A stretch of DNA of 64,000 bases, taken from assembly GCF_000165425.1 (NCBI RefSeq), contig NW_001799020.1, positions 155,609 to 219,608 on the forward strand. The letters are read 5' to 3'. The stretch is from Paramecium tetraurelia (Eukaryota; Ciliophora; Oligohymenophorea; Peniculida; Parameciidae). A program made the translations under genes and the position numbers. The notes under the pieces were generated by a model, which did no database searches, was not told the DNA's origin, and worked only from the letters and a program-made list of their open reading frames with translations. Shown here in pieces: positions 46,312-63,908 of this stretch (its first letter is position 1; each line of letters starts with the position of its first letter).

Positions 46312-46461
46312 NNNNNNNNNNNNNNNNNNNNNNNNNNNNNNNNNNNNNNNNNNNNNNNNNNNNNNNNNNNNNNNNNNNNNNNNNNNNNNNNNNNNNNNNN
46401 NNNNNNNNNNNNNNNNNNNNNNNNNNNNNNNNNNNNNNNNNNNNNNNNNNNNNNNNNNNNN
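46312..46461. other. Assembly gap (150 N)
   Basis: A run of 150 undetermined bases. It lies between the LINE remnant and the decayed MORN copy, so the true junction of these two is unknown and may be longer or shorter than shown. Confidence 0.99.
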
Positions 46462-47539: not shown

Positions 47540-50128
47540 ATGCTTGAATATTTTAATAAATGGAAGAAGATAGATGACCTTCCTCCAATTGCTGATGAAA
47601 TTAATTTCCAAGAAAATCAAAATATTTAACTATGTCAATAAAATATGAATCAAGTAATTAAGTAATAAGGCTAGGAGGAAAACGAAAATAATTTAATATT
47701 TCTTGATCTAAAGGAGTTTGGAATTTAGGAATTACAAACAGAAGTCATAGAAATGTCTTAAATCATTGAAGAGTTCATGCAAAGGATATTCTAAAAATAT
47801 TTGACATCTATAGATACCAATAATATTTATATGATAAATGAGGGAGGACTATTGGATAAAAAACACTAACTTAATTTTTATCATATTAAAAACAATTCAA
47901 TCATTAAATTCATAAAAATGAAATAGACCTATCCTGAAAAATGGATTATCATTATTAAAACTTTGACTGGAAAAACCTTAACGTTAGAAATAAATAATAA
48001 AGATATGTCTATTGAATAGTTGAAGATGTTAATACAAAATAGAGAAGGTATACCACCCGATTAATAAAGATTGATATTTGAAGGGATACTCTTATAAGAT
48101 GGAAAAATGCTATGGGAATATAACATAGGACCTGAAAGTACTCTGTATCTAACCTTACGTTTAAGAGGTGGTTGTTTTCCTGGAAATGCTCCAATAAAAC
48201 TTTTTAATGGAAGAACAAAAATAATAAAAGAGATTGAATTAGGTGATATTGTTATGTGTTATGATTTTGAATAAAAATAGTTTAAGTCGTCAATAGTAGT
48301 TTTTAAGAAAATATCATCAGAAAAATAATAATTAATAGAAATTATAAGTGAGAATGGAAGTATTATTTGTACTCCTAATCATCCTATTTATACTTAAACA
48401 GGATGGAAAGCGTTAGAACCACATCCAAATTTTTTTATTGAGAAATTAACTGTTACTGATCTTATATTTGATTCTAATGAAAGATTAGTAAACATCCTCT
48501 AAATTAATTAACTAAAAGACACAGAAATTGTTTATAATATTACAACTTCATATCCAAATAACTTCATTGCTTTTGACTTCTTAGTACACAATATGAATAA
48601 AATATTCATTTAAATTAATGGGTTTAACGAAGAATTTGAAATACTACCTTATTTTTTAGTTTAAAATTTAAAAGTTATTATTGAAAAGAAAAAAGGAATA
48701 CCTATGATTGATTAATAATTATATTATTAAGGAATACTAATGAAAGATCATTTTTCATTAGAAGATTATAAGCTATTACAAAATGGGACTGAACCAGATC
48801 TGTTAATATTAAAAGTAATAAAATAATCTTAGAAATTGTAATATGAAATTAATTAGAATACAAATAGTGAAACATGTGTTTCAATAATAACACATAATTC
48901 TTAATATCAATTATAAATTAAGAAGAATCAAAAAATAGGAAAGATAAAAAAAATATTAGAGTTTGTAGAATCTAGAGAATAAATAGAAAGATCATTTATA
49001 TTATGTAATGGAAAACCTTTACGGTCTAAAAATATAGACGAAAATAAAACAGATCTAGCAAATGTTTAAAGTATTTTCTTAATTGATTAACAATCTGGAG
49101 GGATTTCTATGAGATTTACTTAAGAGATAAATGATCAGTAAGTTTAGACTGCATCTTAGCTAAAAGATTCTTTGTAGTGGTTAGGTAATCCATAAATTAA
49201 TGAATTTATTTAAGCAAATCTAGAAGAGATTAATGGGAATTAATAAAAAAAATATTATTATCAATAAATCCCCCTTCCCTGTATGATTGCAGTTAGATTA
49301 TATACGTGTGACTTAATCTATAGAAAATTAAATAATGATTTAAGAACATCTGATTATAGAAGATGGAAGTAATACTTAAGATATTTAATGGAAGGTTTTC
49401 GACTTATGAAATATTATAAAGGAGTTGCATATCGTGGAATTAAAGATTATTAAAATACTACACTATATAAAAAGGGAAAGATTGTTTAATGGAGTGAAGT
49501 TACCAGTGTTTCATTAAATTATAAAATTGCATAACATTTCAGTAATAATAAAGGAATGATATTTAATATTTAACTAATAAGTGGCAAAGATATATCCAAA
49601 ATTTCAATTTATGAAGGAGAATAAGAATTAATAATGTATCCCTTTTCAACTTTTGTTGTTGATGAAGTTCAAATTAAACCAAATTAACCACATATTGTAA
49701 CAATGAGAGAATTACCTTTACCTAGATCGCATTGTGTGTTATTATGGGTCGATGACAATCCCGAAAACAATTTTAACTATGCTTACGAAGTAGAAAGATA
49801 AAACAACAATATTTCAGTTATATTTTGTACATCCACAAAAGATGCTATACTAATAATCTCAAAATATAACTGGATGATATATTTATCGGAATCTTAATTT
49901 AGAGTTATTAGTGATATGGTAAGAATAGAAGATGGTAAACTGAATTATAATGCAGGGATAGAATTATTAATTCATTTATATTAAAAAATGAAATACAAAA
50001 ATAGAACTATCATATTTTGTGGAGATCAAAAGAGAGCTTAGGAAGAGTGCAGAAGTAGAAATATACAAGGAAATTTTGAAATTACTAATAATGAACATGT
50101 TTTGAAATAGTTTCTTTAATTTAATTGA
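47540..50128 (+). CDS. Ubiquitin-like / intein-like (BIL) / ADP-ribosyltransferase / receiver-like fusion (BUBL-type)
   Basis: One uninterrupted frame of 862 codons, no intron. Residues 1-130 unknown. ~135-211: ubiquitin-like domain (IIKTLTGKTLTLEI) ending LRLRGG. 212-351: Hint/BIL domain that starts with Cys212 (CFPGNAPIKLFNG), has T278-P-N-H281 of block B and ends FLVHN with His350-Asn351; the next residue is Met. ~352-425 and ~445-521: two further ubiquitin-like domains, the second ending QQSGG. ~600-720: ADP-ribosyltransferase with VAYRG (Arg632), TSVS (Ser656), EGEQEL (Glu696) and YPFSTF. 735-862: LLWVDDNPENN receiver-like domain. BUBL genes are known in ciliates; autocleavage could release or attach the ubiquitin-like part. 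Confidence 0.9.
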
Positions 50129-50167
50129 TAAATTATAATCATTTATTATTATTAGGATAAAGAATAA

Positions 50168-51986
50168 TCATTCAATATTAACTAATTAAGTTCGCTTTTT
50201 CTTAGAATAATTAAAATGTAGTTATGGCATTATATTATTATTAAATGGTTAAAGAATTTCTTCATTAAGTTCAAGATTGATACCTAAATTTAATATTTAT
50301 ATAAAATAATACAATACTATTCTGCTTTTATTTCTTTGCATATGAGAAGCAAATAATTCTTAATTTTAAGAGTGAATTAATTTAGTTTCCTAATATTAAA
50401 AGTTCCTTGTATTTTAATGATCTTCAATTAATTTTCCATAGATTCACCTTTAATAATGATTAATTCACTTGTTGAACTATCTAGAATACAAGCTAATAAT
50501 AAATTAAATATTTTTGGAATTGTGTTTAAAAATATATCTGAGCCAACTAGTTAAATTTTTGATTTTGGATTACAAAAAGCTTAAATTTTAGATACAGATT
50601 TCTTTAAACTTAAAATTTTTGATATCATTTATTTATTCCACATTTAAGTAATTTTATCTTACAGTTATATCTTATTAGCTAAATTATGGAACTGATTATA
50701 ATTAAAAGGTATATCTTCCTTTATTATTTTAATAAAAACAGTTAATAATTTTAGATATAATTGACTAACTTTATTGGCTTCCTAATTTTAAATATGTAAT
50801 TTTGATTAACTGGTTTGAATTAGGATAGTTGGTTGATTTCCAAAAAAGATAGAAAAATCAACTTAAATTAATTATTTATCAAACTTAACATTTAATGAAT
50901 CATTCACAATTTCCAAATATTTTTAAGAGAATTCTTATAATTTATAAAATAAACACTGTTCTAAGGAGATATTGTCTACTTTGGCTTCTCTTAAAAAATT
51001 CATGACCTCAACTTATGATTGAATGGTTGGTGAAAATGTTGATGTTATACTTTAAAATTACAATTTTTCAACTTGATAATTGATTAAGATAAACTTTTAA
51101 TTGTGAAGAATCTATTTTAATATATTTTCCCATCTTTAATCCATTTTAGTTAACAGAAATTATGATCTTATTGCTTTATTATAAAAATAGACAATAATAA
51201 TTAATGATAAATTAGCTCCAAAGCCCAATATTATTGTAGTGATGTCAATACTAGGACTGTTTTATACTAGATGAAGTATTCTAAGTGAGTACAATAAAAT
51301 AATCGTCATTGTTGAATCTAAAAATTCAATTCCTAATATATTTATTATGTTAATGGCCATTTAATGTGCTCCTCTAAAATACATCGTTGGAGTATCTAAA
51401 AGTGGATCAAAGAAGATCACATAAATAGAAAAACAAATATTAATGTAAATAATTAATGCACGTTAGTGATATACGTTTTCGATATTAAAGAATTTTGAAA
51501 GAGCTGTGAAAGCTATCATTCCAAGTGAAGGGTAAATGACTGCATAATTTTACATTATTAGAGCAATAGTTAGCTTGATGGACTAAAGCACAGTAAAAAA
51601 TAGTAAGAATATTTTTAAATGAGTTCTTCTTCTTGGAGATTAATGCTCAAGTTAGTATTTCTATTCAATTGATTGATCTAGAAATTTTAATGTTACCTTA
51701 TGCATTCCTAATTATAAATATTTATTAAATTGTTCAATCAATTAGAAATTGTGAAATAAAATCAATTTAGTGATTTTAATTAAAATGATATATTCATTTT
51801 GATATAGCTATATATGATATTCACAAAAAGGTTTTTGTTTTTTGTATTTGTCTATTTTATTTTCATAAGTTAATCTAAGAATTTAATTATTTATTTTGCC
51901 TTAATTTCATCTAATGATTGTGAATAATTATATATAAATAATTTCGAAAACTTTTTAGTGTTTATTGAATATTTATTAGATTACAT
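50168..51986 (-). CDS. Multi-pass membrane protein resembling a degenerate sensor histidine kinase
   Basis: About 590 residues. One intron (50284-50312, 29 nt). The soluble N terminus (residues 1-55) is in a different frame and needs a 17-nt excision GTGAATATCATATATAG near 51800, shorter than usual, so it may be a frameshift. Four to five hydrophobic segments follow (LKIFLLFFTVLQ, ALIIYINICFSIYVIFF, TIILLYSL, TTIILGFGANLSLIIIVYF), then a PAS-like stretch (ILHNQKFILINYQ) and a region that recalls a histidine-kinase ATPase domain (IQLVGSDIFLNTIPKIFNLL), without a visible phospho-accepting His. Domain order parallels the intact kinase at 61108. Convergent with the BUBL-type gene, 39 bp apart. 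Confidence 0.55.
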
Positions 51987-61107: not shown

Positions 61108-63607
61108 TCAAATAAACAATAGTTTAAGATCTTAGGAGGTTGGTGGCTTTTACAGAATTTTATCGGCACCAGCGCTAAGGCAATTTTGTTGAGTCTTCAT
61201 ATCATTAAAAGCAGTCAACATATAGATTTTAGTAGTTGGACTTATCCGTTTGATTTCATTAATGCATTATAACCCATTCATTCCTGGCATATTGAAATCT
61301 AAAAATACAACGTCATAACGCTGTTTCAAAACCATATCTATTGCTATTTGCCCTCCAAAAGCAGTATCTACCTTATAGATTCCTATTTTTGATAACTATA
61401 TTTTTAATAACATATTATTAAACGACTCATCATCTACGATTAAGACTTATAATTTTTCTTTTTTATTAATTTTTTTATGGAATGGAGCAAGTTGGTTTGT
61501 ACTAATCATATTCTTATATGGAGAATGCACTGATACATCATAATCTATGGAATCGACACTAAACTAATCTTATTATTAGTGATGCTATTATTTATCATAA
61601 TTTTTATAAATGACGAATTAAAAAGTTGAACCAACTCCAACTTATGATTCTAGATAAATGTACTACAAAGGTCCTATGTACCCACACAGCTACTTGCAGA
61701 TGATCAATCCCAAACCAACACCATTTCTAACTTTTTATACTAATACTCTACTTGTTTGTGTTGTTATCATCATCATAAGTGGCAAAGTTTCTGAAAAGCC
61801 GTCTTTAAATTTCTTGGGTGATTCCACTTCCGCTGTCATAAACTGTACATAGAATTAACCTTTATTGATTTCGAATTAGAGGATCAACATCAACTACTGA
61901 TTTATTAATATTAATTTAATCCTTAACATTAATGCAAAATTTGCAAATATCCATAGGTTCATCAGAAAAGATAATGGATATTTTTCCTTTTGATGTGAAT
62001 TTGATGGCATTTGATAGTAAATTAAAGAGGACTTACTTTATTCTCAATGGATCATTATTTAAAATTTAAGTAGATTTTAGTATAGAGACAATCTCTAGCT
62101 GTAGGTTCTTCTTTTGTGTTTATATACGAAATACATTTTTTACATCTTGAATCAATTATAAAATATCAAACTCACTAATGGCTAGCTTTAACTTCTATTA
62201 TTTAATTTATGAGAAATCTTATAAATCATTAACAAAGGATTGTAGTATTTATACGTTTGTTTAGCACATCTCTAAATAGTTGCAACAAGATTGTATTTTC
62301 TCAAGTATTTCTGGGTTAGTTTTCATTTCAGACAATTCATATAAACTATCTTATACTAAAGTTATCATAGATTAAACAACACCTATTGGATTCTTCAAAT
62401 CATGACTAACAGTAGCCAAAACACTGTCTTTATATTGATCTAGCTTTTCAAGCTAAGATATTTTGATTCTATCTGTTATTTCAATCAAAGACACTACAAA
62501 ACTCTTTTAGTATTTCCAAATACATGGAGATACTAAAATATCATAAGTTTAATGATGATTATTATACATTAATCCCGTTAATTTTAACGGCAGACTTTCT
62601 TGAAGTTCTTTGTCTTAAGAGTTACTCATATATTAATAGAGAATGTAATTTAAAGACTAAGGATTGTCAATCATATTGATTTACTCTCCTGTTGCTTTTA
62701 AATTATTTAAAATGAGTTCTTGAGTTAAATTAACTTTTAAATTGCATAAAGAAATATTGGATTCATTACAATTGATAATCTAAATTTGATTAATTTTTTA
62801 GTAAATGCTTTCAATAGTAGCAAACTCCTTGTTACAAGCCTAATTGACAAATAGGACTTCAAATTAATCTTGCATATTTTAATCTGAATTCAACTTAATA
62901 ACAAACAAGTTCTATTGTAGGCTATGGTTAAGCACTACCTCTTAATATGAAAGATCATGACTGAAATTAAATTTCTCAAAAAAACAGATCAATTTCCTTC
63001 TCTCTCTCAAATAAATACTAATGGATATTGCAAGAATAAATATCCATTCAAAAGGTAATAGGATCCAATCAAAAATATTATCAAAATACAAATAAGTAAA
63101 TTACATTATTGTAAAGTAACATATTAGGTATTTCTTGTTGTTTAAACTTTGAGTAACATACATATAATATAATTACACATATCCGTTAATCATGAATTAA
63201 TCAACATACAAACTTAAATAGATCAAAATTGTTACAACATGAATGATTTTCCAATAATCATTACATGTTGAGTTCCTTTAAATACTCCATATCTATAGCA
63301 GACTTGACAATGGAAAAACTATCAGGATTTATGATTCAACAGACTAATTGTCTTTAAATATTGCTGAAATAGTCAAAGCTAATTCCAAAAACATTTTAAA
63401 GGTTTCTATGAAAATCATTGGGCATTTATTTAACTTTTTCTGGAAAGTTTTAAAACTGTTCTGAACATCCTAATCTCGGAAGTTTAGAGTTGCATTCAAA
63501 AATGCATTTTCAGGTTAGAGATTTCTTGATATTTACAATAAATACTTCATCTGAGAGTGATTATATATTACTTAATTATAAATTATTTTTATTTCATGTA
63601 ATACCAT
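61108..63607 (-). CDS. Membrane hybrid histidine kinase with C-terminal receiver domain
   Basis: 824 residues, one 25-nt intron (61727-61751). About five N-terminal hydrophobic segments (MFLELALTISAIF, ILIVFPLSSLLQIW, IIHVVTILIYLSLYV, LICYFTIMQFTYLYF, WILLPFEWIFILAISISIYL). A PAS-like region follows. The kinase core has H box VSHDLKNPIG, N box RIKQVLFNLLSNAIKFT, DSGSGI and GVGLGLIICK. The receiver has VLIVDDESFN, phospho-acceptor FLDFNMPGMNG, LTAFND and KILQKP. It autophosphorylates on His and passes the phosphate to its own Asp. The start is ATG 63607 or 63550. All hallmark residues are intact. Confidence 0.9.
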
Positions 63608-63642
63608 AACTTTGAAGATATATTTACGTAATGCTTATTTGT

Positions 63643-63908
63643 TCAATATTAATCAATTTGAACTCCAAAAAATTTATAAATTTCATCATCATTTCTATCA
63701 AATAAAAATGTTTGCTCTTTTTTTTGCTTCACTATTTTGCAGCATATCTTAACTTATTCTGGATAACGCCAGAAAGAGTCGATAATTTGGAGATTTGAAT
63801 TTATCAGTTTAGAATTTTATAATGGGTAATCTTTTGAATCATATATTTTTTAATCAAATTATCTAAAACTTTGTAATAAGTTGATGATTATCGAAGCCTA
63901 ATTTCAAA
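63643..63908 (-). CDS. 3' end of a gene truncated by the telomere
   Basis: An open minus-strand frame runs from the first non-telomeric base to a TGA at 63643-63645 with no ATG. It reads in part FEIRLRQSSTYYKVLDNLI and IIDSFWRYPEQVKICCKIVK, ending EIYKFFGVQIDQY. Composition and lack of TGA for ~85 codons favour real coding sequence, though this length alone could occur by chance. The 5' part is missing because the telomeric repeats start here. Family unknown. Confidence 0.5.

Follow-up and report, generated by a model that had tools for sequence, protein, structure and literature searches.

The closest described relative of the protein analysed here is BUBL1 of Tetrahymena thermophila, in which the intein-like domain BIL2 lies between the ubiquitin-like (UBL) domains ubl4 and ubl5. 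According to excerpts of the published accounts, the BUBL1 locus carries two BIL domains (PMC9200820), and BIL2 transfers the UBL upstream of it through an isopeptide bond in an ATP-independent manner (PMC8616854, section 2.4). The zinc ligands of BIL2 are reported there as coupled to its activation (PMC8616854; PMC9200820); they are H48 and H125 in PMC9200820 and are given as H125 and H148 in a figure legend of PMC8616854. A title cited in PMC8616854 describes a ubl of the BUBL1 locus as 'ADP-ribosylation associated', and the BIL2 chain is deposited in the PDB under the name NAD(P)(+)--arginine ADP-ribosyltransferase, so that the combination of UBL, BIL and ADP-ribosyltransferase domains is already known at BUBL1. 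In the portions of the wider BIL literature drawn on here, BIL domains without a nucleophilic next residue mostly cleave (PMC7664689; PMC7765530), and A-type BIL domains splice in some instances (PMC5874633).

In this study, we describe a gene of Paramecium tetraurelia located in a stretch of 64,000 nucleotides, the whole of which is referred to as the window. Dassa 2004 is said to cover Paramecium too. Judged from its sequence, the encoded protein is a member of the BUBL kind, and it appears to depart from the published accounts of BIL2, as excerpted above, in the absence of the zinc ligands, in the finding of one Hint domain and in a receiver-like domain that follows the ADP-ribosyltransferase (ART).

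The gene and its domain order

Frame and domain evidence together establish that this is a real gene (Table 1). Its coordinates in the first-pass annotation are right: a single ATG frame of 862 codons runs without TGA under code 6, an event with a chance of 1.7e-8 at the base composition of the gene, and the other two frames of the plus strand contain 19 and 41 TGA codons across the same stretch. The G+C content at the three codon positions is 0.31/0.24/0.18, the largest frame under the bacterial code is 121 amino acids or less, and the QQ of the ubiquitin stretch PDQQRLIF is encoded as TAA TAA.

Table 1. Features of the gene and the encoded protein, in window positions.
Feature	Residues	Window positions	Strand	Evidence or remark
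Single-exon coding sequence	862 aa	47540..50128	+	Ciliate code: TAA/TAG = Gln, TGA stop
Weak N-terminal ubiquitin-like region	71-124	47750..47911	+	Pfam ubiquitin 0.0038, no Gly-Gly end
UBL2, end LRLRGG	137-211	47948..48172	+	Pfam PF00240 (137-209); alignment with the genome's own ubiquitin
Hint/BIL domain	212-351	48173..48592	+	PF01079, PF14623, PF14890; 6y75/6tmm E 6e-12
UBL3, no Gly-Gly	355-415	48602..48784	+	Pfam PF00240 3.8e-10 on segment
Region claimed as further UBL, SGG at 519-521	439-524	48854..49111	+	No test in favour
Arginine-type ART domain	582-718	49283..49693	+	PF01129; two phage ARTs; Vis 4xzj
Receiver-like domain	732-860	49733..50119	+	Bacterial relatives, predicted model, Foldseek, VIA

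The surroundings of the gene show several further features. The G+C content of the window falls from about 30-37 percent at 10-38 kb to about 22-24 percent at 42-54 kb, the region of the gene, and a run of 150 N, possibly an assembly gap, lies upstream at window 46312-46461. A long code-6 frame on the minus strand (window 50026-51906), parts of which seem hydrophobic on visual inspection, converges on the gene with a small overlap; it gave no Pfam match and no similarity to the histidine kinase of the window. A neighbouring protein kinase gene has a candidate 28-base intron with GTA...TAG ends; of the joins compared, it gave the third-longest open frame, and its ends were the reason for preferring it. 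Introns of such small size are in keeping with a Paramecium-like ciliate.

From the N-terminus, the chain comprises a weak UBL, UBL2, the Hint domain, UBL3, a stretch reaching to approximately residue 524, the ART and the receiver-like C-terminal domain; a Pfam search with the 862-residue protein finds the ubiquitin, Hint and ART domains. The full-length AlphaFold model, calculated without an alignment, had a pLDDT of 33.8 and gave no usable structure. The weak N-terminal UBL was missed in the first-pass annotation, as was the ExE signature E694-Q-E696 of the ART; its Pfam match on the segment is below the cut-off, and its hhalign score against a ubiquitin profile was equalled by 15 of 100 shuffles. 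UBL2, the Gly-Gly-ended UBL said to abut the Hint domain without a linker, does so, G211 being followed directly by C212. Its tail (206-211) is identical to that of the genome's own ubiquitin, and alignment with that ubiquitin shows K6, K11 and K27 kept and L, R, I and P at positions 29, 33, 48 and 63. Two more UBLs had been proposed downstream. UBL3 stands on its Pfam match, whereas the region at about 439-524 was dropped, since Pfam, PDB and hhalign searches all gave it no support: no Pfam family was matched at E up to 10, the PDB sequences returned two Argonaute chains alone (E 2.3-2.4), and the score in an hhalign comparison with a three-row ubiquitin profile, run with no positive control, was reached by 22 of 100 shuffles.

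The Hint domain and the possible fate of UBL2

Profile searches recover the Hint fold from the whole protein (PF01079, E 1.9e-9; PF14623, E 6.7e-8) and from the segment (PF14890, E 4.4e-9), and the annotated Cys1, TxxH and C-terminal His-Asn are present as C212, TPNH (278-281) and HN (350-351). The assignment to the BUBL/BIL family likewise holds. The junction residues fit, and among PDB sequences, that is, among solved relatives, the best matches of the domain are four chains of T. thermophila BUBL1 BIL2 (6y75 and 6tmm; E 5.9e-12 to 8.1e-12), the next match having an E of 0.0014. The protein thus combines a Gly-Gly-ended UBL before Cys1, a BIL2-like Hint domain and a UBL after it, and it resembles BUBL1 in having one UBL directly before the Hint domain and another behind it, in the association with an ADP-ribosyltransferase and in the block B and terminal histidines. 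The residues T278xxH281 and H350-N351, followed by M352 rather than Cys, Ser or Thr, are those of an A-type BIL domain, which shares the terminal His-Asn and the non-nucleophilic next residue in the excerpted descriptions (PMC7765530; PMC7664689); unlike A-type domains, which occur in variable bacterial proteins, the present domain is eukaryotic and set between ubiquitin-like domains.

In the alignment with BIL2, 41 of 140 aligned residues are identical; it begins at F213 and leaves C212 one residue outside. With the published numbering matched to the crystal chain by setting chain residue 6 as Cys1, H281 faces H69, the block B His of BIL2, and H350 is also aligned with a BIL2 His. The crystal chain has Ala opposite N351, which places the terminal Asn outside the comparison with BIL2. 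Unlike in BIL2, whose zinc ligands are H48 and H125 in the relevant part of PMC9200820, these positions are occupied by S260 and N333, and two more BIL2 histidines are replaced (62 by S274 and 132 by N340). The aligned domain contains three histidines only, 281, 295 and 350, and because each already faces a BIL2 His, the zinc site is beyond rescue by a small shift of the alignment. A zinc-switched copy of BIL2 was therefore rejected, with S260 and N333 at the ligand positions; the loss of the ligands and of the two other histidines implies that control must differ or that activity may be weaker. The same losses, together with the intact signature of the ART, could speak for a dead Hint domain in a single-chain ART whose ubiquitin-like domains hold it to its targets and whose receiver regulates it. 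We regard this as decidedly unlikely, given that C212, T278, H281, H350 and N351 are all kept, which is not what one would expect under drift.

By analogy with BIL2, we consider it moderately probable that this is a BUBL-type protein whose Hint domain transfers UBL2 independently of E1 and releases the ART and receiver part. C212 would attack the G211-C212 peptide bond in an N-to-S acyl shift, and UBL2 would become a thioester on the Hint domain. With M352 after N351, there is no acceptor for the usual class 1 transesterification, and the amine of a lysine, either K354 (the third residue past the Hint domain), another lysine of UBL3 or one of an outside protein, could accept UBL2 in an isopeptide bond. 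Such a transfer would require neither ATP nor E1, E2 or E3 enzymes. Cyclisation of N351 would free the C-terminal part, which consists of the predicted arginine ADP-ribosyltransferase and the receiver-like domain. As UBL2 is without K48 and K63, it would cap rather than extend chains built through these lysines. Enzyme-free transfer by the Paramecium protein was the proposal of the first-pass annotation, and as an analogy it is sound; the idea itself is not new, having been published for BIL2 in the part of PMC8616854 cited above.

The residue after N351 also bears on two other outcomes. Ordinary class 1 splicing is thought unlikely with Met at this position. Splicing by an alternative A-type BIL route, in which UBL2 would be joined end to end to UBL3 and the Hint domain would leave, has a precedent in the instances of A-type splicing mentioned in PMC5874633; with Met as the next residue, and with the Tetrahymena relative reported to form an isopeptide bond (PMC8616854, same section), it seems highly improbable. 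Simple cutting is the more serious competitor, a possibility that we judge unlikely and yet well worth keeping in mind. Thioester hydrolysis and Asn cyclisation would free UBL2 with an intact LRLRGG for charging by the ordinary E1, E2 and E3 enzymes, and the protein would be a self-maturing ubiquitin precursor with the ART as cargo. The cleavage described for most BIL domains without a nucleophilic next residue (in the excerpts of PMC7664689 and PMC7765530) is in line with this, as is the identity of LRLRGG with the tail of the genome's ubiquitin next to 49-59% identity for the top ten ubiquitin matches at other genomic loci; what argues against cutting alone is that BIL2, the nearest characterized relative, yields isopeptide products in that section of PMC8616854.

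The ADP-ribosyltransferase and receiver-like domains

The signature R, S-x-S, E-x-E is a mark of arginine-type ADP-ribosyltransferases. The Arg-Ser-Glu ART of the first-pass annotation is found as an ART fold by profile search (PF01129, E 1.2e-9) with R632, S656 and E696, and R632, S656, S658, E694 and E696 are invariant in an alignment of the Paramecium sequence with ARTs of Variovorax phage VBv52 (36 percent identity) and Xanthomonas phage Mallos (33 percent). The phage matches comprise three records, the third being a second Mallos entry that was left out of the alignment. Among PDB sequences, Vis (4xzj) is matched weakly, at E 0.0047, and in register, with a designed helix bundle ahead of it at 0.0037. 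The predicted activity of the C-terminal part is thus that of an arginine ADP-ribosyltransferase. In its signature the domain resembles the arginine-specific mono-ADP-ribosyltransferases (PF01129, such as Vis 4xzj and the ART of a phage head protein), from which it differs in being fused behind UBL-Hint-UBL and ahead of a receiver-like domain.

The C-terminal domain, named in the first-pass annotation for its WVDDNPENN motif and called receiver-like, deserves this description on the evidence of its bacterial relatives, their PF00072 matches, a predicted model and structural searches. A scan of bacterial genomes gave 27 stretches with a pattern match, six of which were confirmed as relatives; all six carry WVDDNPENN and are 31 to 45 percent identical in their best segments. 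Exact words were the basis on which these were chosen, and they are therefore evidence that the domain is homologous and not of where the ciliate obtained it. In the seven-row alignment, D738, D739 and D792, which are the acidic pair and the phospho-acceptor Asp, are invariant in all rows. With E values of up to 1 admitted, PF00072 is matched by each of the six bacterial rows and not by the Paramecium domain alone; of five bacterial relatives submitted whole to Pfam, two (L039 and L041) pass the curated cut-off of this family. The model of the domain has the five-stranded receiver fold (pLDDT 85.6, pTM 0.82), and its leading structural matches in Foldseek and VIA are receivers. The VIA list also holds two rows with titles from the ubiquitin pathway (8oyp and 9ckx) amid the receivers. 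In the bacterial proteins (L037-L042), the WVDDNPENN domain follows stretches that look membrane-like by eye, and L041 also carries Trans_reg_C. When four of the six bacterial relatives were given to PADLOC, three were matched weakly, at E no better than 0.0016, and the fourth not at all.

The fold, the acidic pair and the phospho-acceptor aspartate are therefore those of PF00072 receivers with WVDDNPENN ... DMxR ... AGxxL. The Paramecium domain differs from these in having no PF00072 match of its own and an eight-residue insert before strand 3. The usual Lys after strand 5 was not seen at the aligned place, where the alignment is loose and one of the seven rows ends earlier, and phosphorylation may for this reason not occur. 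A retained intron as the source of the insert was rejected, as no in-frame GTA...TAG stretch of 18-36 bases covers residues 781-788. The position of the domain after the ART would set the protein apart from BUBL1 as described in the excerpted accounts. The domain probably regulates or localizes the ART, a role that we put forward speculatively.

Two-component parts are present in the genome. Of 229 receiver candidates, 50 were scored and all 50 matched, which puts the number of receiver domains at 50 or more, and the window contains a histidine kinase. The kinase (HisKA and HATPase; window 61598-63652, minus strand) is adjoined by a receiver at about 61126-61446 with the top score among the 50 scored in the genome, and the two probably form one hybrid kinase gene (61126-63652, minus strand). 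Any link between these parts and the BUBL-type protein is conjecture. An extended proposal, in which the receiver replaces the control by zinc and two-component signals gate both the E1-free attachment of a UBL without K48 and K63 and the release of the ART, seems to us rather unlikely.

Relatives elsewhere and biological meaning

Searched against the genome, the whole protein has 28 matches elsewhere, through its ubiquitin part only. One ubiquitin sequence occurs in many loci, as judged with a pattern limited to close copies, and a polyubiquitin array lies at G000 C183:101083-103602. Searches with the Hint, the ART or the receiver part lead to this locus alone, and so does a genome scan with PF01079; unlike the BUBL1 locus with its two BIL domains (in the relevant part of PMC9200820), the genome searches thus gave one Hint domain. 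Scans with PF01129 and PF14890 returned nothing, and as they missed even their own locus they are uninformative on absence. Paralogues were rejected on these searches, in which the protein, beyond its ubiquitin part, is single copy, with no expansion.

The first-pass annotation had also raised the prospect of a conflict system, in which the protein would act as a weapon or defence effector that tags and ADP-ribosylates the proteins of an invader or rival. The relatives of the ART lend this some colour, since the three phage records matched include a minor head protein and the domain weakly matches the profile of NF041404, a family of secreted effectors (E 1e-4; 21.6 bits, where the cut-off is 300). 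The phage matches are to the ART part only, however, and the whole protein has no PADLOC match at E up to 0.1. Four exact-word scans of viral_contigs, covering the whole protein and three of its parts, gave 2, 1, 34 and 2 stretches with the word, none of them confirmed as a relative; distant relatives are missed by such scans, which need an exact peptide word. Among plasmids, the whole protein has one match, a Ruminococcus ubiquitin-family gene, to the UBL part, and the receiver part has none. The PADLOC and viral_contigs results, with the single copy and lack of expansion, count against a conflict role, which we regard as very unlikely.

A BUBL-type protein that transfers its own UBL2 stays our preferred reading. 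One chain unites ubiquitin-like tagging, ADP-ribosylation and a two-component-type domain. In the excerpted published accounts, E1-free ubiquitin-like transfer by an intein is characterized in one ciliate protein. A divergent second protein, with no zinc ligands and with a receiver added, would test which parts of the mechanism are general, and the same comparison would test whether the switch is exchangeable.
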